DNA of 31,114 bases from a virus. The notes below the pieces were generated by a model. That model was given only the letters and a program-made list of their open reading frames with translations. It had not been told where the DNA came from and did no database searches. Positions within the stretch are counted from its first letter, which is position 1; the number at the start of each line of letters is the position of its first letter. A program made the position numbers and the translations under genes. This document shows positions 3,771-31,114 of this stretch, piece after piece. The DNA lies in IMG/VR virus record IMGVR_UViG_3300008108_000311, positions 1-31,114 of that record; one strand, given 5' to 3'.

Positions 3771-3998
3771 ATGACACTACCTGACGAAAGATACCTAGCC
3801 ATAAAGCAAGGGAAAAAGTTGCTTGAGGAACTTTGTGATCCGGGCAAAACACCAAGAGTACCTAGTATTGTTAGAGATCGGGCAAGAACAGCATTAAAAC
3901 ATTTCCCAAATGACTGGGACATTGATATTATTGCTGAAAGGTGCCCTGAAATCATTGACAAGAAAGCCAATGGCGTGTATCGTACTACAAAACAATAG
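3771..3998 (+). CDS. BPSL0761-like small protein, 75 aa
   Basis: The sequence MTLPDERYLAIKQGKKLLEE followed by a DPGKTPRVPSIVRDRARTALKHFP segment fits my recollection of the BPSL0761-like small proteins found in proteobacteria and some phages; the function is unknown. It is short, basic and helical, with no membrane segment. An upstream in-frame ATG at 3729 exists, but it would translate through the hairpin and lacks a ribosome-binding site, whereas the ATG at 3771 has TAGGAG a few bases upstream. It sits between gp32 and uvsX, so a role in DNA transactions is possible by context only. The match to the family is from memory of its N-terminal pattern. Confidence 0.75.
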   Translation: MTLPDERYLAIKQGKKLLEELCDPGKTPRVPSIVRDRARTALKHFPNDWDIDIIAERCPEIIDKKANGVYRTTKQ

Positions 3999-4007
3999 GA
4001 GACTATT

Positions 4008-5075
4008 TTGGTTAAGCCATTTGATGTAAGTAAATTTAGAAAAGAAATAACTAAGTCCATTGACGGGCTTAGTATAGGTTTTAATGATCCGACCGACTGG
4101 ATCAGTACAGGAAATTATGCACTCAATTATCTTATTAGTGGTGATTTTAGCAAAGGCGTTCCTCTTGGTAAGGTCACTGTATTTGCTGGAGAAAGTGGTT
4201 CCGGCAAAAGTTATATCTGTTCTGGCAACTTGGTACGTCATGCTCAGCAACAAGGTATATTCGTTGTACTCATTGATAGTGAAAACGCACTTGACGAAGA
4301 TTGGTTGCAGGCGTTAGGTGTTGACACCAGTGAAGATAAACTGTTAAAATTAAACATGGCCATGATTGATGATGTGGCAAAAACTATTAGTAAGTTTATG
4401 GTTGACTATAAGGCTCAACCCGGTGAAGAAAGACCAAAGGTCTTGTTTGTAATTGATAGCTTGGGAATGCTGTTAACTCCCACAGATGTAAATCAGTTTG
4501 ATGCAGGTGACTTGAAAGGTGATATGGGACGTAAGCCTAAAGCACTTACTGCATTAGTGCGTAACTGTGTGAATATGTTTGGTAGTTGCAATGTTGGATT
4601 GATTGCAACAAATCACACTTATGCAAGTCAAGATATGTTTGACCCAGACGATAAAATTTCTGGTGGACAAGGATTTATCTATGCAAGTTCAATTGTTGTA
4701 GCAATGCGTAAATTGAAACTTAAAGAAGATGAAGATGGTAATAAGGTAACTGATGTACTTGGCATACGTAGTGCGTGTAAAGTTATGAAAACACGTTATG
4801 CAAAGCCATTTGAAAGTGTTCAAATTAAAATACCTTACTCAACTGGTATGAATCCATATAGTGGATTGCTTGATTTGTTTGAAAAGGTAGGATTGCTTAC
4901 TAAAGAAGGTAATCGTCTTGCATACACGACCGAAGATGGTGAGGTTATTAAACTTTTCCGTAAAGGTTGGGAAACAAATGATAACGGTTGCCTTGACAAA
5001 GTGATGGTTGAGTTTAGCAAAAAAGAATCAAATAAGCTAAGTACTGTTGCTACTGTTGAGGAGGAAGCAACATGA
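4008..5075 (+). CDS. uvsX: RecA-like recombinase UvsX
   Basis: ATP-dependent strand-exchange protein that forms filaments on ssDNA with UvsY help and starts recombination-dependent replication. Walker A is GESGSGKS (residues 61-68), Walker B is about 145-150 (VLFVID), and the L2-like region includes LIATNHTY and KISGGQGFIYASS. At 355 aa it is slightly shorter than T4 UvsX (391 aa). The start is TTG with AGGAG 6 nt upstream; no ATG fits better. The C-terminus ends in a short acidic stretch (VEEEAT). It overlaps the next gene by ATGA, indicating translational coupling. Confidence 0.94.
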   Translation: MVKPFDVSKFRKEITKSIDGLSIGFNDPTDWISTGNYALNYLISGDFSKGVPLGKVTVFAGESGSGKSYICSGNLVRHAQQQGIFVVLIDSENALDEDWLQALGVDTSEDKLLKLNMAMIDDVAKTISKFMVDYKAQPGEERPKVLFVIDSLGMLLTPTDVNQFDAGDLKGDMGRKPKALTALVRNCVNMFGSCNVGLIATNHTYASQDMFDPDDKISGGQGFIYASSIVVAMRKLKLKEDEDGNKVTDVLGIRSACKVMKTRYAKPFESVQIKIPYSTGMNPYSGLLDLFEKVGLLTKEGNRLAYTTEDGEVIKLFRKGWETNDNGCLDKVMVEFSKKESNKLSTVATVEEEAT

Positions 5076-14645: not shown

Positions 14646-15389
14646 GTGTACTCTACATCTGTTTATAATTACATCCCTAGATATCAGGTAGTTTTATACT
14701 CTGGACAATCTAATAGGAGATATCAAATCGTGTATGCTAAAAATATAACTTTAAATAAGGGAGTTGATAACAGAATTCAATTTCAATTCCTAAATCAGGA
14801 GCAAAAATCTGTTGATATTACCGGAAAACAAATAACGTTCAGATTTATTGACTCTAGTGGAGCTGAAATTCAGTTACAGAAAACAGTTGAAAGTTTTCTT
14901 CCTCTAACCGGATTGGCAAACCTAACTATTACCCAATCAGATTTATTTGATATAAATGCTCAGCTAGGAAGTTATAGTTTAGAAATTACCGACGGTAATT
15001 TAAATTTACCAGCTTTTGTTAACAGTGAAGCAGGAGCGCGGGGAGTTTGTCAAATAGTTGATAGTGTATTACCAAAACATCTTCCTAGTGTTACAATAAC
15101 TATACCATCTCACGGCGAAGTATCCAACACTGGAACAACATATTATAGCAGTGTATTAAGTTTATATGGTGCAAAATATTTAACTTTACAGACTAATTTG
15201 GCAAACTACTCAGGTAACATAAATGTATTGGGTTCAACCGAACCTGATTCAGATTGGTATACGATTGAATCACTAAACTTTAGTACAAGCAATCTCACAA
15301 TCGGCACGACAATAGAAGGTTTCCATCCATATATTAAACTAGAGTTTGTATCTACTGGCGGAAACGTAGATTCAATTTTAGCTAGATAA
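14646..15389 (+). CDS. Probable virion protein with BppU-like N-terminal beta domain, 247 aa
   Basis: Residues 32-80 (KNITLNKGVDNRIQFQFLN, then VDITGKQITFRFIDSSG) resemble the beta-sandwich at the N-terminus of BppU-type baseplate and fibre proteins. The rest is Ser/Thr/Asn-rich and beta-strand-like, including VLGSTEPDSDWYTIESLNFS, typical of virion surface parts. The start is GTG with AAAGG about 9 nt upstream; no ATG is available nearby. A late-type element and monocistronic position support a structural role. Exact role (baseplate, tail or head decoration) cannot be told. Confidence 0.68.
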   Translation: MYSTSVYNYIPRYQVVLYSGQSNRRYQIVYAKNITLNKGVDNRIQFQFLNQEQKSVDITGKQITFRFIDSSGAEIQLQKTVESFLPLTGLANLTITQSDLFDINAQLGSYSLEITDGNLNLPAFVNSEAGARGVCQIVDSVLPKHLPSVTITIPSHGEVSNTGTTYYSSVLSLYGAKYLTLQTNLANYSGNINVLGSTEPDSDWYTIESLNFSTSNLTIGTTIEGFHPYIKLEFVSTGGNVDSILAR

Positions 15390-18885: not shown

Positions 18886-19260
18886 ATGGCATATTTTACA
18901 AAAGTACACGGTGACTTTAAACAATTAATGAACTACGATGCTCCTAGTTATACAGTAGGATCATTAAACGCAATTACAGCAAACGTTACAGTACAACCAC
19001 AAGGTCCAAAACTAGACTTCTTTACTATCACAGGTAATGGAACACAAGTTTTAGACAACATCTCTACTGTTTTTCAAACAGTTCAGCAATTAGCTACAAT
19101 TCATATATATGAATTCAGCGATGCTGGAGATGATGATAGTTTAGCAATCGCTATTTACCCAACTGGTGCATGGACTACAGTAACATTAGACAATGAGTTG
19201 TCAAATGCTTGGACAAGTGCTAACGTTTCAGTATCATCAAGCGCAACATTCACAAACTAA
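18886..19260 (+). CDS. Probable virion protein, own promoter and terminator, 124 aa
   Basis: Ser/Thr/Asn/Val-rich, all-beta sequence with no Cys and few charged residues, e.g. ITANVTVQPQGPKLDFFTITG and SDAGDDDSLAIAIYPTGAW. It is a compact single-domain protein. Transcribed alone between a late-type element and a strong hairpin terminator, an arrangement typical of an abundant virion product such as a decoration or tail component. No homologue was recognised, so the structural role is inference. Confidence 0.75.
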   Translation: MAYFTKVHGDFKQLMNYDAPSYTVGSLNAITANVTVQPQGPKLDFFTITGNGTQVLDNISTVFQTVQQLATIHIYEFSDAGDDDSLAIAIYPTGAWTTVTLDNELSNAWTSANVSVSSSATFTN

Positions 19261-21007: not shown

Positions 21008-21337
21008 ATGCGTTTATTTGAATTTGTAAACGACGATCCTTTAAGAGTTAAGTTGGTCGCTATAACCGACCAACTTAAAGATCGATATTCACATTCTAAT
21101 AAACCAATGTCAGTGGATTCATTTTTACAATTACTTAATAATAATGATATTAGTGTAGATATAAGTGATTTACGAGATATGATTTCAAAAGAACCTTTAG
21201 TAAACATAATAGATGACATTAAAGGTGATGAAGTATTTTTTAAAGGGCAGAAACAATCAGACAAAATGCCAACTAGCCCAGATGAGAAAGAAAAAACTGT
21301 GGCTAAGATGGCTCAACGTGCAAGCGACAATCGATGA
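21008..21337 (+). CDS. Small late protein, 109 aa
   Basis: Function unknown. The conserved-looking end is NIIDDIKGDEVFFKGQ, then a Ser/Pro/Asp/Glu linker and KTVAKMAQRA. The body is helical, probably a partner of the preceding gene product. Only 2 nt separate it from the previous stop, and its stop overlaps the Fe-S carrier gene (ATGA). Codons 14-24 are spanned by a perfect 12-bp inverted repeat. Confidence 0.8.
   Translation: MRLFEFVNDDPLRVKLVAITDQLKDRYSHSNKPMSVDSFLQLLNNNDISVDISDLRDMISKEPLVNIIDDIKGDEVFFKGQKQSDKMPTSPDEKEKTVAKMAQRASDNR
21048..21078 (+). repeat. Perfect 12-bp inverted repeat inside a coding region
   Basis: TTAAGTTGGTCG (21048-21059) and CGACCAACTTAA (21067-21078) pair perfectly around the loop CTATAAC. 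It lies 40 nt into the 21008 gene, without a T-tract. Confidence 0.85.
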
Positions 21338-21660
21338 TTACACTTACAGAAACAGCAGCAAAAAAAGTCAAACAAAAATTAACAAACAGAGGTAAAGGCA
21401 TAGGTATAATGATAGGAGTGCAAACTACTGGATGTAGTGGTTTAGCATATAAACTTGAATACATCGATGTTCTTCCTGAATCTGGTAGTTATATGAGTTA
21501 TCAAACCAATGATGTAATAGTCATTGTCAGTCAAAAAGACCTTCCTTATGTTGAAGGTCTTACTATGGAATACAAGCGTGAAGGACTTAATGAAGGATTT
21601 AATTTTATAAATCCAAACGAACGTGATCGCTGTGGTTGCGGGGAAAGCTTCAGAGTTTAA
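21334..21660 (+). CDS. A-type iron-sulfur cluster carrier (IscA/ErpA/HesB-like)
   Basis: Carries Fe-S clusters to apo-proteins. All three cluster-binding cysteines are present: C34 in TTGCSGLAY, and C100 and C102 in the ending DRCGCGESFRV, and the spacing is typical of the family. At 108 aa it is full length. The N-terminus ITLTETAAKKVKQKL is also typical. It may supply clusters to a phage or host enzyme during infection; the target is unknown. Start overlaps the previous stop (ATGA). Marine T4-like phages are known to carry such genes. Confidence 0.93.
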   Translation: MITLTETAAKKVKQKLTNRGKGIGIMIGVQTTGCSGLAYKLEYIDVLPESGSYMSYQTNDVIVIVSQKDLPYVEGLTMEYKREGLNEGFNFINPNERDRCGCGESFRV

Positions 21661-21698: not shown

Positions 21699-21704
21699 GT
21701 CTTG

Positions 21705-22391
21705 ATGTATAATCCTAATAAATTTAATTACTCACGTTTTGGCAAGGAAAGTGTAGGTGGCAAGCGTTTATATGCAACACCAGATGGTGAAAAACTTCCT
21801 AGTGTGACAACTATACTAGAGGCAACAAAATCAGAAGAAAGTAAAAAAGCACTTAACGAATGGCGTAACCGTGTGGGTCATAAACGTGCGCAAGAAATCA
21901 CAACTGAGGCCGCTGGTCGAGGCACACGTATGCACAAGTTTATTGAGGATTATATCAAAGAAGGTATCTTAAAAGAACCGGGCAGCAACCCCTATAGTAT
22001 ACAAAGTCACACAATGGCAAAATCAATTATTGAAAAAGGATTGTGCAACGTAAATGAAGCGTGGGGCGTTGAAGTACCATTATATTTTCCTAAAATCTAC
22101 GCAGGTACAACTGATCTTTGCGGTATACATGATGGTGATGAAGCTATTATGGATCATAAGCAAAGTAATAAAGTAAAAAAACGTGAATGGATTGAGGATT
22201 ATTTTATTCAATCAGCAGCGTATGCAAACGCACACAACGAGGTATACGGTACAAGAATTCGCAAAGGCGTTATCTTTATGTGTACTGCAGATAATCAATA
22301 CTTAGAATTCATCATTGAAGGTGTTGAATTTGACAAGTATACTGACGTTTGGTTCAACAAATTAGACCAATATTATTCAAAATTCCTATAG
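21705..22391 (+). CDS. PD-(D/E)XK exonuclease (RecB/MGME1-like)
   Basis: Single-stranded or end-processing DNA nuclease. Motifs in order: GRGTRMHKFIE with H77, AGTTDL with D137, MDHKQS with D150-x-K152, and YFIQSAAYANA (Q169, Y173), a complete set for the RecB-like family. At 228 aa it is about the size of phage members of the family. The ATG at 21705 is preferred over the TTG at 21702 because of its position at the predicted transcription start and because no Shine-Dalgarno supports either. Likely to act in DNA repair, recombination or host DNA breakdown. Confidence 0.88.
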   Translation: MYNPNKFNYSRFGKESVGGKRLYATPDGEKLPSVTTILEATKSEESKKALNEWRNRVGHKRAQEITTEAAGRGTRMHKFIEDYIKEGILKEPGSNPYSIQSHTMAKSIIEKGLCNVNEAWGVEVPLYFPKIYAGTTDLCGIHDGDEAIMDHKQSNKVKKREWIEDYFIQSAAYANAHNEVYGTRIRKGVIFMCTADNQYLEFIIEGVEFDKYTDVWFNKLDQYYSKFL

Positions 22392-22420: not shown

Positions 22421-22450
22421 TATAATCATCTTTTCTTAAGAATTATACTA
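22418..22450 (+). repeat. Inverted repeat covering the fibre gene start
   Basis: TAGTATAAT (22418-22426) and ATTATACTA (22442-22450) are perfectly complementary over 9 bp with a 15-nt loop. The last base is the A of the start codon, so folding would affect initiation. The stem is AT-rich and weak. Confidence 0.5.
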
Positions 22451-25400
22451 TGGCTATTATACAGATTTCTAAGATTCAACACCGTACAGGGGCTAACGTT
22501 GATTTGCCCCAACTAGCTGAGGGCGAACTAGGATTTGCGACAGACGAGCGCAGATTATACATAGGAAACGATCCTAGTTTATATCCACCAGAGGGGCTAA
22601 ACACTACAACCCAAACAGAAATATTGACTGAGGTTTCACAGTTAAACTGGTCAAAAATTGCAGGAACGGCCAACACTCAGATAAATTTAAATTCCCCTGT
22701 TCAAAATGGACAATTATTAGTCGCTAATGCAAATACATGGGTTAATGCTGGTGCAAATGCTAACATAGAAATTGATTTAGGATCCGCTAATAATCTAACC
22801 ATACGTGGCGGTCTAAATGGTTACGTATTAACTACCGACGGAACAGGCAATGTATCTTGGGAAAGCACAGGTGTTTTTACCTTTGAAATTGAAAGTGTAA
22901 CAAAAGCTTTAATAGCTGTTTTAAAAACTAAGGACGATAATAATATTACATCTGGCGTTCCCATAACAATAGTTGGTGTTCTAGGAATGGACCAACTGAG
23001 TAATTCAGGAGTGGACGGTACTAACAAATATTATGCTAAGAAAATTAGTACTAAAGAAGTTGAACTTTACACAAATTCAAACTTAAGTACTGCACTTAAT
23101 AGTTACGGATTCACTCCGGCTGTAGGAAATACCGGTAATGCAATTGTTTCATTCTATCAATCTGGTAATGGAAATCCAGGTGGTGCTAATACGCAAATTC
23201 AGTTTCAGGACACTGGCGGAGCCTTTGGTGGAAGTGGTAATCTAACATTTGATAAAACTACAAGTAATTTACGTTTAGTTGGCAATGCAAACATACAAGG
23301 CATATTAAGCTCATCTGGTAATGCAAACTTAGGTAATGTGTACACTGGGTTAATTTCAGCTACTGGAATAGCTAATGTAGGCTCACTCAACGCCAATGGA
23401 GCAATTAGTGCGACTGGAAACGTAACTGGTAATAATTTAAGAACAGTTGGGCAACTTAGTGCAGGTGGTACAGCAACAGTTGGAAATATTAATACCGTTG
23501 GTACCGCAAACGTAGGTAATTTAAGTGTAACAGGATCCGTTAGAAGTAATTTAATTCCTCAGGTAGATATTGAGTACGATTTAGGAAGCCCAACTAACAG
23601 ATGGAAATCACTTTACTTATCAGGTAATACAATATATTTAGGTAATACATCAATTTCAAGTGATCAAGATGGTATTGCAAGTAATACTTTAACTGCAAAT
23701 AATGCGTTAATATTTGATAATATAACATCAAACACGATTACATCAACAATTACTTTTGCAGCATCTAATCAACCTAATATTACAACATTAGGTCCATTAA
23801 CAGGATTAACAGTTGATGGCATCACTAATTTGGGTGATGTAAGCCAATTAAAAATAAACGGTGGTTATCCAGATTACACATTGACTACAGATGGTTTAGG
23901 TAATTTGAGTTGGGCACCAGGAGGCGGAAGTGGCTCTGCAGAGGCGGCAGGTGAAAACAACTGGATACAATATAACTTTAATGATGGTTTTGCTGCAAGT
24001 GCTAATCTCACATACAATCCATTAACAACAACATTACAAGCACCATTTGTTACTGCAACAAGTAATGTTCAAGCAGGTAATCTAAGGACAACAGGTCTAG
24101 CATCTGTAGCAGGCAATGTTATAGCTAATAATTTAAATGCAAGTAATATAATAAGTGCTGCAGGTACAGTTTTTGGCGGTAATATTAGCACAACAGGAAA
24201 TGTGACTGGTGCTAATTTATTTACAGGTGGACAAGTAAGTGCTACAGGCAATTTACGTGGTTCAAGTATATTTGCAGCAGTTGGTATAAGCGCAGTAGGA
24301 AATGTAGCCGGTGGAAACTTATCTACAGCTGGTAATATTTTTAGTCAAAATTTATCAGCGACAGGAAATGCGAATGCTACTACAGTAAATGCGACTACAG
24401 TTCTAGCAGCAAACGTTTTTGCTACTAACTTAATAAGTTCAACAGGTAATGTAGAAGGTGGTAATATATCAACTGCAGGAAGTGTTTCAGCAAACCTAGT
24501 TGCAGCGAATTTAATTACAGCAACAGGAAATATTGCAACTCAAAATTATTTTGTAGGTAATGGTTTCTATTTAACAGGCATTAATCCATCCGCAGTTACA
24601 GCAATAACTAATGGTACAAGTAATATATCCATACCAGATTTAAATGGTGCAGTAAGAGTGGGTGTAGGTGGAACTCCTAGCGTACTTAGTGTAACTAACA
24701 CAGGAATATCAGTTGCTGGCAACGTAGTAATGACCGGTAACGCAGCAAACATTAATACAGGCGGGATAGTTAGTGCAACTGGAAATGTTGTAGGTGGAAA
24801 CTTAACTACTATTGGAAACGTTACAGGAAACTATATTTACGGCAATGGTGCTTTCCTAACTGGTATACTAACTGGATCAACAGGTCAAATTAATAATGGT
24901 ACAAGTAATATCAGTATTGATCCTAACGGCAATGTGAGAACAAGTGTTGCAGGCACAGCTAACATACAAGTTGTTACTAGTACAGGAGTTAGTGTATCTG
25001 GAAATATTGCGACTTCAAATAATATAAGTGGTGCTAATTTAACCCTAACAGGACAAATTACAGCAGCGGGTAATGTCACAGGTCAGAATATTTTAACTGG
25101 TGGAATTATAAGTGCAGTAGGTAATGTTGCAGGTCAAAATGCAAATATAGTTGCTAATGCAAACGTCGGTAATAACTTAATCAGTGCTAATGTCATAACT
25201 GGAATCGTAAGCGCATCTGGAAATATAATTGGTCAGAACTTGAATGTGTTTGGAAACGCTAATGCTGTGACTGCTAATATAACTAGCAACATTAACGTCG
25301 GTAATAACGTTTTAACCTCTAATGTAACTGCAATAGGAAATGTCGTTGCAAACAACGTTCAAACTACAACTAATATAAGTGCGGCTGGTAACATCACAGG

Positions 25401-28400
25401 AAATAATTTATTAGGTAATTCTGTATCTGTTACAGGTAATATTTCTTCTGGTGCAAACGTAACTGCTTCAAACTTTGTTGGAAATCTCAGAGGTACTGTA
25501 TTCAACGGTACGTCTAATATTGCTATACCGACCTCATCAGGTAATATTGGAATTTCTATCAATGGTGCTCCTAATGTTGTATTAATTACCGAAACAGTCA
25601 CTAGTGTTACCGGTAATTTATCTGTAACTGCTAATGCAACAATCGGTAATGTACTATCTGCAGCACAAATAAATGCAGCAAATGCAAATATAGGAAACAT
25701 TGTTGGAGTACAATGGACAGGAAATGTTGTTACTGCTAATGCCAATATAACTGGTGGTAATTTAAATACCTCCGGTGTAGTAAGTGCCACTGGTAATATA
25801 ACCGGCGCTAATGTAAATACAGGAATATTAAGTGCAACCGGTAATGTACAAGCTGGTAATTTAAGAACTGCAGGAATAATTTCTGCGACTGGTGCTTTAA
25901 CCAGTGGTAGCATCAATACTGGATTAATAAGCGCTAGTGGTAATGTCACAGGCGCCAACTTATTAACTAGCGGTGTAATAAGCGCAACTCAATCAATTTC
26001 TGGTGCATCATTGTCTGTTTCAGGCAACATAAGTGCAAACAATGAGACTATTGGTAATTCAACAATTACATCTAATTTGAGTGTAGGCGGACTAGCAAAT
26101 GTTGGCAATCTAATTTCAACTAGTAATATCAGCGCATATTCCACAGTTAAGAGTGATATTGGAGTTGCCAATACTGTTACCGTAAATGTTTTGGCAAACG
26201 TAGGTAACCTAATAGTTAATACATTTGTACAATCAAACTTGTTGCCTAATGTCCCAAATGCGTATAACATAGGTAATGTAACTAACCCATGGAATAGAGT
26301 TTTTACTAGTACATTGGGTATTGCTATTGGTAACGCAAACATTCAAAGTAATGTAAATGGTGTAATTGTAACGGCAAATAACACATATGTTTCAAACGTA
26401 GTTGCTTCTAGTAATGTCAATGCTGCAGGAATAGTGAGTGCTACTGGAAATATTATAGGTGGTAATATTAGCACCGCAGGATTGATAAGTGCAACAGGTA
26501 ATATAGTAGGTAACGCACATTTAGGTAATACAGTTTCAGTTAGTGGAAACATAAATGCAAACTCATTAGTTGCAGTTGGCTTAATTACAACTACTGGAAA
26601 TGTTGCTGCGAATAATTTAAATGCGGTTAGCTTAATAAGCTCTGCTGGTAATGTAGTTGGTGCTAATTTATTAACAGCTGGTCAGGTTAGTGCTACTGGA
26701 GCGATTTTAGGTTCTTTAGTATCAGTACCAGGTAATATAACTGGTAATAATCTTGCTATTGGTAATGCTAACGTTACAGCAAACTTAAGCGTAACAGCTA
26801 ATGCTAATGTAGGTAATTTAAATGTTGCTGGCATTATAAGCGCAGTAGGTAATTTAACAGCAGCAAATGTTACTACTGGTATTGTTACTGCTACTGGTAA
26901 TGTGTCAGGTGCTAATATTAATACAACAGGTAATGTTAGTGCAATTGGTAATATAATAGGTAACTCGCACGTAGGTACAAGCGTATCAGTAACAGCAAAT
27001 ATAGCCGGTGGTAATATTAACACATCAGGAAATGTACTTGCTACTGGTAATGTGTCAGGTAACAATGCAACATTTGGTAATACAATAGTTGCAGGTGGTA
27101 ATATATCAGGCGCAAGTATCAATGCAACAGGCATCGTTAGTGCAACAGGCAACATAATAGGTAACGCACATCTAGGTACAAGTGTTTCTGTAACTAGTAC
27201 CATTGTAGGTGGCAATTTATTAACAGGTGGTATAGTTAGTGCAACAGGTAACATTACTGGTAATAACCTTAATATTGGTAATGCTATAAGTGCAACTGGT
27301 AATGTTGTAGGTGGTAATATACTCACTACTGGAGTTTTAAGTTCTGTAGGAAACTTGTCTGGAAGTAATTTAAATGCAACTGGTGTAGTTAGCGCAAGTG
27401 GTAATGTAAGAGGTGGAAATCTTTTAACAAATGGTTTCGTAAGTGCATTGGGCAATGTTACTGGAAATATTATTAACGCAACTCAAGCAAATATATCAGG
27501 CACTTTAACTACAGGTATACTTAGCGTAGTTACTACCCTTGCAGGATCAAATTTATCAGTTTCTGGTAACGTCACAGCTTTAAGTTTAATAGGTACTAAT
27601 GGTAATATCAATAATAATCTAAGAGTTGGAAATAATGCAACTGTTGGAAATCTAAGTTCATTAGGAAATATTACAGCAGTTGGTACTGTTAAATCTAATG
27701 TAGTTCAAGCCAACTATACAAACACAAGTAATTTGCAGGTTTCAGGATCGGTTCAATCTAGCTTAATTCCTGACGCATCATATAGTTTAGGTAATGCAGC
27801 AAATCCTTGGGAAACAATTGCTGTTTCTAATTCTGGTATTTCTGTTGGTGTTAACTCAATTACAAGTAATTTAGATGGCCTTGTTTTAGGAGCTTCCACA
27901 ACTTTTGCAAATACTGCAAACATTTTTGATTTAAATGTAGCGAACAAAGCATATTTAGGATCTATTGACAATGTTAAAATTGAAGGTGGCGCACCTGATT
28001 ACTTACTAGCAACTGACGGTGCAGGTAACTTACGTTTTGATACTTTTAGTGCATTATTAAATGCTGCAGGTAGCAATGGAGAAATTCAATATAATTTAGA
28101 TGGAAAATTCGCTGCATCAAGTCAATTACAATTTACAGCAAATGGATTTACATTAGGTAAATTTGCTGGTAATGGAGCAGGTTTATTTAATATTGCAGGT
28201 GCTAACATAGCAGGTTCTGTACCAAACGCAATAGTTGCAGGAACAGTTTCTATACCATCACAGGCTAATATCACTGCTGTTGGTAATTTGGCAAGTCTTT
28301 CTGTAGTTGGTAATATACGTAGTCAAAATGCAAACTTAGGAAACTTAGCTTCTGCTAATTTCTTCCAAGGTGTATTTACAGCATTTGCTTCTAACCAACC

Positions 28401-31114
28401 TAATATTCGTAGCTTAGGTAGTTTAACAGGTTTAACGGTAAGTAATATTGCAGGCATTGTTAATTTTGAGTTTACCTCAAATGTAAGTTTGGGTCAAGTA
28501 AGTAATTTACGTATAACAGGTGGTAGTAACGGTCAATTTTTAAGAACTGATGGTTTTGGTGGATTGAGTTTTGCTAACCCAGTCGCTATTTCTGTTGCGA
28601 ATGGTATCAGTAGTATTACCATAGCAGGTAATAGTAATATTTCATTTAATGTTGCTGGTTTCAACGATGTAGTAAATTTTGGTCCTGCATCACAAACTGT
28701 TAATGTAACCGCAGTCTTTAATCAGGGCGCAAGTTTCTTTAATCAAGTAAGTTTAGGAACAGTAAATAACCTACAAATTTTAGGTGGATCAGTTGGTCAA
28801 GTATTAACCGTAAGAAATACTTTAGGTGGTGTTGAATGGCAAAATGCACCAGCAGCTACAAGTTTGATAAATGGTAACAGCAATGTTATAGTCCAAGGTA
28901 ACAGTGATGTTAGGATTGGTTCTAATGGTATACCAAACGTTGGTGTGTTTAGTAATTTAGGATTGCGTACAACAGGATTAAGTGTAACAGGTACTTCTAA
29001 TTTAGGACCAATTGGTAATGTAAAAATATCAGGTGGAAGTGCTGGATTTGTACTAACAACAGATGGTGCAGGTACTCTTTCGTTTACTGCACCACCTCAA
29101 GGAACACAAATATTTAATGGCAACAGCAATGTCGTTGTCAATGCCAACGCCAATATTGACATATATTCTTCTAGTACATTAAGTGCAAGATTCACACCTA
29201 ACACTCAAGCATCATTTATTTCTAATTTACAAGTAAATGCATTTAATAGTACAGGTGTAGCTACATTAGGACCAATAGGTAATATTAAGGTTATAGGTGG
29301 CAATCCTAATGATATTATAAGCACCGACGGTTTAGGTAATTTATTCTTTACAAGTGCACCAATAGGTACACAATTAGTAAGTGGTAATTCAAACGTTATT
29401 GTAGATAACGGTGGAAACATTCGTTTCAGTTCAAACAATGTAGCTAACGTTGCTAGATTCACTCCAAATGGTTTAGTTACAAATAACATCACTGTAAATT
29501 CTATTTTTAACAGTGGATTAGCAAATCTAAACAACATTGCTAATGTACAAATATTTGGCGGATCAGCAGGACAACTCATTGTCACAGACGGTGCAGGAAC
29601 ATTGTCATTTGCAAATGTACCAAACAGTGCTGCAATCGCAAATGGTACAAGTAATTTATTCATACCTGCAGCAAATGGTAACATTAGAGTTAGCGTAGGT
29701 GGAACAGCAAATGTAACTACATTTAGTAATATAGGTCTACAAACACAAAACTTATTTTCAAGTTCTATATTCAACACAGGATTAGCTAACTTTACAGGTG
29801 GTATTTCTAACGTTAAGATTCCAGGCGGAAGTAACAACCAAGTCATTGTAACTGATGGTGCAGGTAATTTATCCTTTAGTGATGTGCCAATTGTTTCTAC
29901 ACTAGCAAATGGTGTAAGTAACATAGCAATTGCAAATGGTGGATTTATAAGATTTGCAGTAGCAGGAACAGCAAACGCTACAGTATTTACGAATGTAGGA
30001 ATTCAGACTGGTAATGTTACATCAAACAATTTATTTAATAATGGTATAGCAAATCTTAACAACATAAGCAACGTTAAGATATTTGGTGGCAGCGCAAACA
30101 ATATTATAATGACAGACGGATTAGGTAATTTGTCTTTTGTAAATGCCCCAATCGCACCATCTATAGTCAACGGATCAAGTAATGTTGTCATTGATGTTAA
30201 TGGTAATGTTAGAACAAGTGTTTCTGGTGTAAGCAACGTATTAGTTGTTTCTAATACAGGAATTACTGTAACTGGTAATAGTTTCTTAGGCTCAAATGCT
30301 AACGTAAGAATAACAGGTGGTCTTGCAAATTACATACTCAGTACGGATGGCACAGGTAGTTTGACTTGGATAGCACCTCCAATTGACAATAGAATTAGTA
30401 ATGGAACTAGTAATGTAACTGTAGATAATAATTCCAACATTAATATGAGTGTTGCAGGAGTATCTGGTATATTTAGAGTAACCAATATAGGTGCTAATAC
30501 AAATACATTTACTGCAAATAGTATCTTCGTATCTAATGTAAGTAACTTACGTGTACCAGGTGGTGTTGCTAATCAAATATTAGCAGCAACAGACAACTTA
30601 GGTAACTTAGGATATATCAATATCCCTTCACCGTCATCTATTGCAACAAGTAATGGTTCAATAACAATAGGAACAAGTCCAAATATTACGTTTACAGTTG
30701 GTGGACTAACTACTGGTGTTATGCAGCCTCCTATATCAACTGAATTCTTTGATGTGAGCGACTATGCTGCAGCAACAACAAGAGTAGGAAACCCTAATCC
30801 TCTGAACACAGGACCAATGTCAGGAAGTATTACTCTAAATCTTAATGATAATGTTAGTTATCTTGCAGTAACCACAGGCAATTCGGCATTAACTATAGGT
30901 TTAAATCAGTTTACGTTAGAAATGTGGTTTGTAGCATACAATCCAAACGGTTTAAAACAAACACTATTTACATATGGAAATGTTGGAACAGATGCAGTTA
31001 ACAATAGCTTTGAGTTATATATACAAGGAAGTGTTGTATATTTTGTCGGATATCCAATAGCTTCAAGCACTACTTTCATTACCCTTGCAACAAACTTTAA
31101 TTATTATAATTGGA
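22450..31114 (+). CDS. Giant repetitive tail fibre / adhesin, at least 2888 aa, 3' end outside
   Basis: I read the frame codon by codon: no stop from the ATG to the right edge. Residues 1-42 (ISKIQHRTGANVDL, then LAEGELGFATDERRLYIGN) match the short N-terminal module of many phage fibre and structural proteins. The body is made of three repeat types listed separately: a 16-17-residue unit, an about 87-residue unit, and rarer LIP...LGN..NPW segments. It is dominated by Gly, Asn, Thr, Ser, Ala, Val and Ile, with very few charged residues and no Cys seen, as expected for a beta-solenoid or trimeric beta fibre. From about residue 2798 a LamG-like lectin module begins. Host attachment is inferred. 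The full length is unknown. Confidence 0.9.
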   Translation, partial: MAIIQISKIQHRTGANVDLPQLAEGELGFATDERRLYIGNDPSLYPPEGLNTTTQTEILTEVSQLNWSKIAGTANTQINLNSPVQNGQLLVANANTWVNAGANANIEIDLGSANNLTIRGGLNGYVLTTDGTGNVSWESTGVFTFEIESVTKALIAVLKTKDDNNITSGVPITIVGVLGMDQLSNSGVDGTNKYYAKKISTKEVELYTNSNLSTALNSYGFTPAVGNTGNAIVSFYQSGNGNPGGANTQIQFQDTGGAFGGSGNLTFDKTTSNLRLVGNANIQGILSSSGNANLGNVYTGLISATGIANVGSLNANGAISATGNVTGNNLRTVGQLSAGGTATVGNINTVGTANVGNLSVTGSVRSNLIPQVDIEYDLGSPTNRWKSLYLSGNTIYLGNTSISSDQDGIASNTLTANNALIFDNITSNTITSTITFAASNQPNITTLGPLTGLTVDGITNLGDVSQLKINGGYPDYTLTTDGLGNLSWAPGGGSGSAEAAGENNWIQYNFNDGFAASANLTYNPLTTTLQAPFVTATSNVQAGNLRTTGLASVAGNVIANNLNASNIISAAGTVFGGNISTTGNVTGANLFTGGQVSATGNLRGSSIFAAVGISAVGNVAGGNLSTAGNIFSQNLSATGNANATTVNATTVLAANVFATNLISSTGNVEGGNISTAGSVSANLVAANLITATGNIATQNYFVGNGFYLTGINPSAVTAITNGTSNISIPDLNGAVRVGVGGTPSVLSVTNTGISVAGNVVMTGNAANINTGGIVSATGNVVGGNLTTIGNVTGNYIYGNGAFLTGILTGSTGQINNGTSNISIDPNGNVRTSVAGTANIQVVTSTGVSVSGNIATSNNISGANLTLTGQITAAGNVTGQNILTGGIISAVGNVAGQNANIVANANVGNNLISANVITGIVSASGNIIGQNLNVFGNANAVTANITSNINVGNNVLTSNVTAIGNVVANNVQTTTNISAAGNITGNNLLGNSVSVTGNISSGANVTASNFVGNLRGTVFNGTSNIAIPTSSGNIGISINGAPNVVLITETVTSVTGNLSVTANATIGNVLSAAQINAANANIGNIVGVQWTGNVVTANANITGGNLNTSGVVSATGNITGANVNTGILSATGNVQAGNLRTAGIISATGALTSGSINTGLISASGNVTGANLLTSGVISATQSISGASLSVSGNISANNETIGNSTITSNLSVGGLANVGNLISTSNISAYSTVKSDIGVANTVTVNVLANVGNLIVNTFVQSNLLPNVPNAYNIGNVTNPWNRVFTSTLGIAIGNANIQSNVNGVIVTANNTYVSNVVASSNVNAAGIVSATGNIIGGNISTAGLISATGNIVGNAHLGNTVSVSGNINANSLVAVGLITTTGNVAANNLNAVSLISSAGNVVGANLLTAGQVSATGAILGSLVSVPGNITGNNLAIGNANVTANLSVTANANVGNLNVAGIISAVGNLTAANVTTGIVTATGNVSGANINTTGNVSAIGNIIGNSHVGTSVSVTANIAGGNINTSGNVLATGNVSGNNATFGNTIVAGGNISGASINATGIVSATGNIIGNAHLGTSVSVTSTIVGGNLLTGGIVSATGNITGNNLNIGNAISATGNVVGGNILTTGVLSSVGNLSGSNLNATGVVSASGNVRGGNLLTNGFVSALGNVTGNIINATQANISGTLTTGILSVVTTLAGSNLSVSGNVTALSLIGTNGNINNNLRVGNNATVGNLSSLGNITAVGTVKSNVVQANYTNTSNLQVSGSVQSSLIPDASYSLGNAANPWETIAVSNSGISVGVNSITSNLDGLVLGASTTFANTANIFDLNVANKAYLGSIDNVKIEGGAPDYLLATDGAGNLRFDTFSALLNAAGSNGEIQYNLDGKFAASSQLQFTANGFTLGKFAGNGAGLFNIAGANIAGSVPNAIVAGTVSIPSQANITAVGNLASLSVVGNIRSQNANLGNLASANFFQGVFTAFASNQPNIRSLGSLTGLTVSNIAGIVNFEFTSNVSLGQVSNLRITGGSNGQFLRTDGFGGLSFANPVAISVANGISSITIAGNSNISFNVAGFNDVVNFGPASQTVNVTAVFNQGASFFNQVSLGTVNNLQILGGSVGQVLTVRNTLGGVEWQNAPAATSLINGNSNVIVQGNSDVRIGSNGIPNVGVFSNLGLRTTGLSVTGTSNLGPIGNVKISGGSAGFVLTTDGAGTLSFTAPPQGTQIFNGNSNVVVNANANIDIYSSSTLSARFTPNTQASFISNLQVNAFNSTGVATLGPIGNIKVIGGNPNDIISTDGLGNLFFTSAPIGTQLVSGNSNVIVDNGGNIRFSSNNVANVARFTPNGLVTNNITVNSIFNSGLANLNNIANVQIFGGSAGQLIVTDGAGTLSFANVPNSAAIANGTSNLFIPAANGNIRVSVGGTANVTTFSNIGLQTQNLFSSSIFNTGLANFTGGISNVKIPGGSNNQVIVTDGAGNLSFSDVPIVSTLANGVSNIAIANGGFIRFAVAGTANATVFTNVGIQTGNVTSNNLFNNGIANLNNISNVKIFGGSANNIIMTDGLGNLSFVNAPIAPSIVNGSSNVVIDVNGNVRTSVSGVSNVLVVSNTGITVTGNSFLGSNANVRITGGLANYILSTDGTGSLTWIAPPIDNRISNGTSNVTVDNNSNINMSVAGVSGIFRVTNIGANTNTFTANSIFVSNVSNLRVPGGVANQILAATDNLGNLGYINIPSPSSIATSNGSITIGTSPNITFTVGGLTTGVMQPPISTEFFDVSDYAAATTRVGNPNPLNTGPMSGSITLNLNDNVSYLAVTTGNSALTIGLNQFTLEMWFVAYNPNGLKQTLFTYGNVGTDAVNNSFELYIQGSVVYFVGYPIASSTTFITLATNFNYYNW
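23536..23670 (+). repeat. LIP...DLG..NRW fibre segment, copy 1
   Basis: SVRSNLIPQVDIEYDLGSPT, then NRWKSLYLSGNTIYLGNTSI, a motif familiar from many phage fibres. Related copies are at 26224-26361 and 27748-27882. Confidence 0.75.
26224..26361 (+). repeat. LIP...LGN..NPW fibre segment, copy 2
   Basis: FVQSNLLPNVPNAYNIGNVT, then NPWNRVFTSTLGIAIGNANI. Same order of elements as the copies at 23536 and 27748. Confidence 0.72.
27748..27882 (+). repeat. LIP...LGN..NPW fibre segment, copy 3
   Basis: SVQSSLIPDASYSLGNAANP, then WETIAVSNSGISVGVNSI. It ends the main block of short repeats and precedes the long-repeat region. Confidence 0.72.
28870..30654 (+). repeat. Array of about 87-residue long fibre repeats
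   Basis: Seven units begin with NG-x-SN or its variants near 28870, 29116, 29380, 29641, 29908, 30169 and 30400 (spacings 231-267 nt). Each unit runs NG-x-SN, an R/V-rich strand, F-S-N-x-G, a linker, NV-K-I-x-GGS and TDG-x-G-x-LSF, then a P-rich turn. The TDGxGxLSF element also occurs singly at 22831, 23884, 28009 and 28546. Confidence 0.85.
30841..31114 (+). other. LamG-like (concanavalin A-type lectin) module, start
   Basis: After the repeats the composition changes: SYLAVTTGNSALTIGLNQFT, then LEMWFVAYNPN, LKQTLFTYGN, SFELYIQGSVVYFVG. The F-T-x-E-x-W-F, I/L-x-x-x-G and F-x-L-x-I pattern fits the laminin G/concanavalin A-like fold used by fibre tips to bind glycans. Cut off by the window edge. 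Confidence 0.65.

Follow-up and report, generated by a model that had tools for sequence, protein, structure and literature searches.

Cultured jumbo phages of the RaK2/121Q/CBB/PA5oct type encode, behind an exonuclease gene, a short Mtd_N-like virion protein of 190–400 aa. This protein is gp31 in 121Q, gp473 in PBECO4, ORF139 in RaK2 and CBB_302 in CBB, and the same locus holds a short orthologue in GAP32 (GAP32_297), XaC1, SCTP-2 and PA5oct (gp243), the last of which sits farther from its helicase gene, behind the exonuclease. The record annotations read 'structural protein' for 121Q gp31 and CBB_302 and 'virion structural protein' for PBECO4 and RaK2, and that of PA5oct gp243 carries an ESI-MS/MS note; RaK2 ORF139 has been listed among the tail proteins, and not as a tail fibre or spike (PMC3622015). 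Two hairy jumbo phages in or near this group bear long unexplained filaments: the tail hairs of CBB measure 119 nm (PMC5259590) and the hairy filaments of phAPEC6 form three rings on the sheath (PMC7247149).

T4-type long tail fibres (gp34/gp37, and that of KP179) resemble the protein described here in having a charge-poor modular shaft, predicted to be beta-rich in our case, and, presumably, a distal tip. They are composed of several subunits on an unrelated anchor, whereas the giant consists of a single polypeptide, at most 4.9 kaa long, whose modules are not assignable to gp34 domains. In T4, residues 744–1289 of gp34 (545 residues) span just over 30 nm, or 0.055 nm per residue (PMC5537660). 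In-frame lengthening of a tail fibre by repeated segments has been obtained in the laboratory for EfV12-phi1 under selection by resistant hosts (PMC6365445); those were fresh duplications of 1.8 kb arising during coevolution, whereas the units considered here are old and diverged ones of 16–17 aa and 88 aa.

We analysed a window of 31,114 bases, which is an entire virus record (IMGVR_UViG_3300008108_000311) and in which a giant fibre gene is left incomplete at the contig edge (Table 1). From its ATG the frame runs through 2,888 codons to the contig end with no stop, as proposed in an earlier sequence-only reading, and the rarity of charged residues remarked on there holds equally: DEKR make up 4.8% of the product, compared with a mean of 25.3% for the 19 other ORFs of the window. 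The exonuclease that adjoins the gene upstream is, by our computation, 36–45% identical to those of 121Q, PBECO4, Munch, XaC1, SCTP-2 and PA5oct. Used as a query, it yielded a set of 80 loci in which the next gene nearly always encodes an Mtd_N-type fibre. Across the Mtd_N-like family the position is directly behind the exonuclease or, in some members, one gene farther on. Two genes upstream of the fibre gene lies that of a small Fe-S cluster assembly protein (21334–21660; IscA-type, PF01521). Two other small proteins of the window (14646–15389 and 18886–19260) look beta-rich and may be further surface proteins; the product of the former matches phrog_1084, whose function is unknown.

Table 1. 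Positions in the window of the fibre gene, its parts and its upstream landmark (residue numbers are those of the fibre product)
Feature	Position	Strand	Basis
Exonuclease (phrog_298), locus landmark in relatives	21702..22391	+	PHROGs match, 80 loci
Giant fibre gene, 5' part	22450..31114 (frame 22450-31113)	+	Complete orthologues of 4,486-4,925 aa in L086, L087, L089, L091
Mtd_N-like N-terminal domain, presumed virion anchor, residues 9-40	22474..22569	+	PF18454, E 2e-7; profile-profile match
First LIP...LG...NRW module, residues ~368-399	23551..23646	+	
16-17 aa repeat region, ~residues 540-1760, predicted all beta	24067..27729	+	Autocorrelation, motif census, AlphaFold model
Junction of a 52-aa (156-bp) gap in the window relative to L002, L003, L004	24742..24743	+	
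Second LIP-type module LLPNVPNAYNIGNVTNPW	26239..26340	+	
Junction of a 33-aa (99-bp, two-unit) gap in the window relative to L002	27346..27347	+	
Third LIP-type module LIPDASYSLGNAANPW	27763..27850	+	
Array of ~88 aa units, residues ~1980-2700, TDGxGNLSF / NGxSN	28387..30549	+	Autocorrelation
Unassigned last part of the visible product (LamG in the sequence-only reading), residues ~2755-2888	30712..31113	+	

The fibre module that had been noted at the N terminus corresponds to the Pfam domain Mtd_N, with a score above the curated cut-off. When compared with the cultured jumbo-phage virion proteins, this region aligns over 66 columns with an hhalign probability of 98.1 (E 1e-13). The homology between giant and short forms is restricted to these first ~66 residues: the profile match ends at column 66, where the repeats take over, and the compact C-terminal domain of the short forms (...RGWD in those of 190 aa), which have no repeat shaft, is absent from the giant. 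As judged from this alignment, the giant gene is an extended homologue of the Mtd_N-like virion family and not a typical member of it. The strongest argument for a virion location of the giant product comes from the cultured orthologues; a baseplate position does not follow from them. Bordetella phage Mtd, with which the domain is shared, is short and contains a variable domain of the C-type-lectin kind. No such domain was matched in the window protein, where Mtd_N alone was found and the C terminus lies beyond the contig edge.

The three repeat systems proposed from the sequence were recovered as periods of 17 and 88 aa and three LIP/LLP...NPW/NRW modules, the latter near residues 368, 1264 and 1772. 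By autocorrelation, lags 17, 33, 50 and 67 exceed every shuffle in residues 540–1760 (identity at lag 17 of 0.218, compared with 0.160 in the best of 200 shuffles) and lags 88 and 176 do so in residues 1980–2700 (0.207 versus 0.150). A motif census counted 67 anchors of the 16–17 aa unit, against a shuffle mean of 10.5 and maximum of 18. The repeats are similar to the tail fibre of T4-like Klebsiella phages such as KP179 at E values of ~1e-6 to 2e-6; low-complexity repeats can resemble one another in BLAST even when they share no ancestor. A match to Synechococcus phage S-CAM7 at the first LIP module (E 6e-6) is local, extending over 54 residues, and was set aside. The window fibre protein has no match in PHROGs, and a PDB search with the whole protein was likewise without a match.

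An AlphaFold monomer model of residues 548–745 is all beta with strands about every 8 residues, at middling confidence (pLDDT 64, pTM 0.62). It has no PDB match at E <= 0.001 in Foldseek, and its matches in BFVD are uncultured phage proteins. The model of the C-terminal stretch, with three relatives as alignment, has a pLDDT of 36 and is not interpretable. The LamG tip suggested for this stretch is accordingly unsupported: it has no match in Pfam, NCBIfam, PHROGs, PDB or the phage database at E limits of 1 to 10, the fragment has no match in IMG/VR, and the resemblance is by eye only.

As for the phage itself, the DnaB helicase of the window is 53% identical to the helicases of two jumbo myoviruses, PA5oct (287 kb) and Atu_ph07 (490 kb), and between terminase and helicase the genes are arranged as in PA5oct. 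Contigs of relatives reach 352 kb, and in one of them (G003) genes for a head-tail adaptor, sheath and tube lie ~8–14 kb downstream of the fibre gene. On the reading favoured below, the phage is probably a jumbo myovirus, so far uncultured, with relatives in the RaK2/121Q/PA5oct assemblage. Although it fills more than a quarter of the window, the fibre gene would make up only ~4–5% of a genome of ~300 kb. We assign no host: the sole match in genome_contigs (L100) is a Flavobacterium single-cell contig with a 49% identical nuclease and no fibre, and that exonuclease stands in a different gene context. Two further observations concern relatives. One encodes a tail sheath of 1,191 aa (L090:3546–7118, minus strand) in which residues ~640–1180 match sheath families best; the ~640 extra residues ahead of this conserved part are a possible sheath decoration. 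In Atu_ph07 (L007:25385–36493), about twelve consecutive hypothetical genes, mostly of ~260 aa, follow the helicase, and those that were read have a common YRGM motif and look like paralogues.

The full gene was sought among the relatives and found complete, with a clean single stop, at 4,486 aa (L086), 4,921 aa (L087 and L091) and 4,925 aa (L089), or ~14.8 kb in close relatives. The L087 and L091 genes are identical base for base, in contigs from different datasets. The complete giants are 68–71% identical to one another with few indels; the shortest, L086, lacks blocks near alignment columns 3,900–4,400. dN/dS among them, computed over 4,400–4,800 codons, is 0.18–0.19 and does not reach 0.25 in any of five segments, and it is ~0.09 between the window and relatives that are 87–91% identical. 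The giant gene is under purifying selection throughout. Residues 2546–2750 of the window, in the 88-aa array, align to residues 1743–1949 of the complete relatives at 50% identity. Past the array (residue ~1949 of the relatives) the window diverges into a stretch without a counterpart, and its last ~135 residues have none in any fibre of the set.

Lengths at the locus vary widely. The uncultured relatives have 44 distinct complete proteins of 254–4,925 aa, and length ratios are as high as 2^3.53 = 11.6-fold (425 versus 4,921 aa) at 85–90% exonuclease identity. In a tree of the exonucleases, which is unrooted with respect to the direction of length change, the giants fall in one group with support of 95/98 (the window, L003, L009, L010, L011, L012 and L015), nested in an eleven-member group (100/96) that contains forms of 397 and 425 aa. 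A conserved C-terminal domain (...ATYADLAEYY...GVIEVAVGRL; phrog_22593/19602) is found in most of the shorter forms, and the giants have another; the domain at the end of L031 also occurs in PHROGs tail fibre 19602. In an orthologue of 1,864 aa (L079:10739–16330), collagen repeats occur in seven stretches and matches to PHROGs tail fibres are numerous; by these features it is a different shaft on the same locus. The anchor is thus kept, and shafts and ends are exchanged. From 190 residues in cultured relatives to almost 5,000, fibre length at one locus has changed ~25-fold.

Within the clade, the picture is different. The idea that the repeats permit length change was borne out in part by two in-frame indels of close to whole units: L002 is 99.75% identical to the window in protein over 2,408 residues, yet has 52 and 33 extra residues. 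The NGTSN/NGNSN spacing is 147 aa in L002, L003, L004, L009, G001 and G003 versus 95 aa in the window, and the 52 residues are present in L003 and L004, which differ from the window by 13% in DNA, so that a derived deletion in the window is the most likely explanation there. Adjacent units are 53% identical in DNA, the longest exact repeat is at most 22 nt and the indel junctions have 0–2 common bases, features that argue against a collapse of repeats during assembly as well as against plain homologous recombination of one unit with another. Fibre length looks constrained inside the clade, the big changes falling between clades. A role for the recombination genes of the phage, like host capture at low cell density, is speculation.

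The data show a conserved reading frame, its place at the locus, homology of its anchor to virion proteins and a series of product lengths. They point to a giant virion fibre, probably a tail fibre, on a conserved jumbo-phage anchor. We regard this as the likely explanation, and it is supported by the complete relatives of 4.5–4.9 kaa and by the virion-protein orthologues at the locus. The first ~70 residues would serve as the conserved anchor, which in cultured relatives is part of a short virion protein (190–400 aa). Several charge-poor beta-repeat families would extend it into a shaft, ~4,900 residues at its longest, and each clade would cap this with a C-terminal domain of its own. Most likely the fibre would hold a receptor-binding tip far from the particle, for first contact with the cell surface or for reach through surface polymers. 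On the T4 gp34 scale, 4,925 residues in a trimeric shaft would measure ~270 nm and the 2,888 residues seen here ~160 nm. A single-chain solenoid advances 0.48 nm per coil; if the shaft were of this kind, with 17 residues per coil, the estimate would be ~140 nm.

One alternative is that the product is a whisker or hair, present in many copies on the tail sheath, collar or capsid for loose entanglement, rather than a receptor-binding fibre. In its favor are the hairs of CBB and phAPEC6 (PMC5259590, PMC7247149), the presence of the short orthologue in CBB and the 121Q group, and the placing of RaK2 ORF139 under tail and not under tail fibre or spike (PMC3622015). However, the orthologue of CBB itself, at ~192 aa, is too short for its hairs, and a distinct domain forms the C terminus of the complete giants, as in a tipped or capped fibre, which leads us to consider a whisker unlikely. 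Another alternative has the product released or expressed in the cell, as an adhesin or matrix component outside the virion. Same-locus orthologues are virion proteins in several cultured phages, and we give this almost no credence.

Two other concerns relate to length. The giant frame or the length differences might be assembly artefacts, since the data are contigs and 27 of 84 loci end inside the fibre gene, as expected where assembly is hard. However, two contigs of different datasets carry the same 4,921-aa gene, a third contig has an identical protein over the first 1,506 codons, no stop interrupts three genes that are ~70% identical, and collapse is unlikely given exact repeats of no more than 22 nt and junctions that share 0–2 bases. 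An artefact is very improbable. A question specific to the window is where its copy ends. The sequence-only reading had the frame continue beyond the window: the longest complete relatives have no early stop, and the window's own copy is open at the edge. It is conceivable, if somewhat doubtful, that this copy is a shorter fibre with its own tip that ends soon past the edge at ~2.9–3.1 kaa, which would be compatible with a giant fibre. The divergence past the 88-aa array favors this, as does L013, which is complete at 2,613 aa and whose truncated near-relative L012 is in the giant group, but the other complete members of that group have 4,486–4,925 aa.

We found no literature on giant phage fibre genes that describes this gene, which is weak evidence of novelty, and the moraphage paper has no mention of PA5oct or giant fibres. 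As far as our searches reach, the fibre is of a known kind and new in size, origin and length range. We suggest, more tentatively, that lineages may have grown fibres of any length between 0.2 and 4.9 kaa on the socket of a conserved small tail protein, so that this gene would set the reach of the particle; at ~270 nm the longest form would exceed the contractile tail and would be tuned to how thick the host's surface layer is. A single anchor at one orthologous locus, with a 25-fold range of lengths and differences of more than 10-fold between phages whose neighboring gene is 85–90% identical, makes a rare system in which to test the benefit of a longer fibre. The results also point to a likely function, that of a fibre socket, for a so far nameless core structural protein of RaK2-type jumbo phages.
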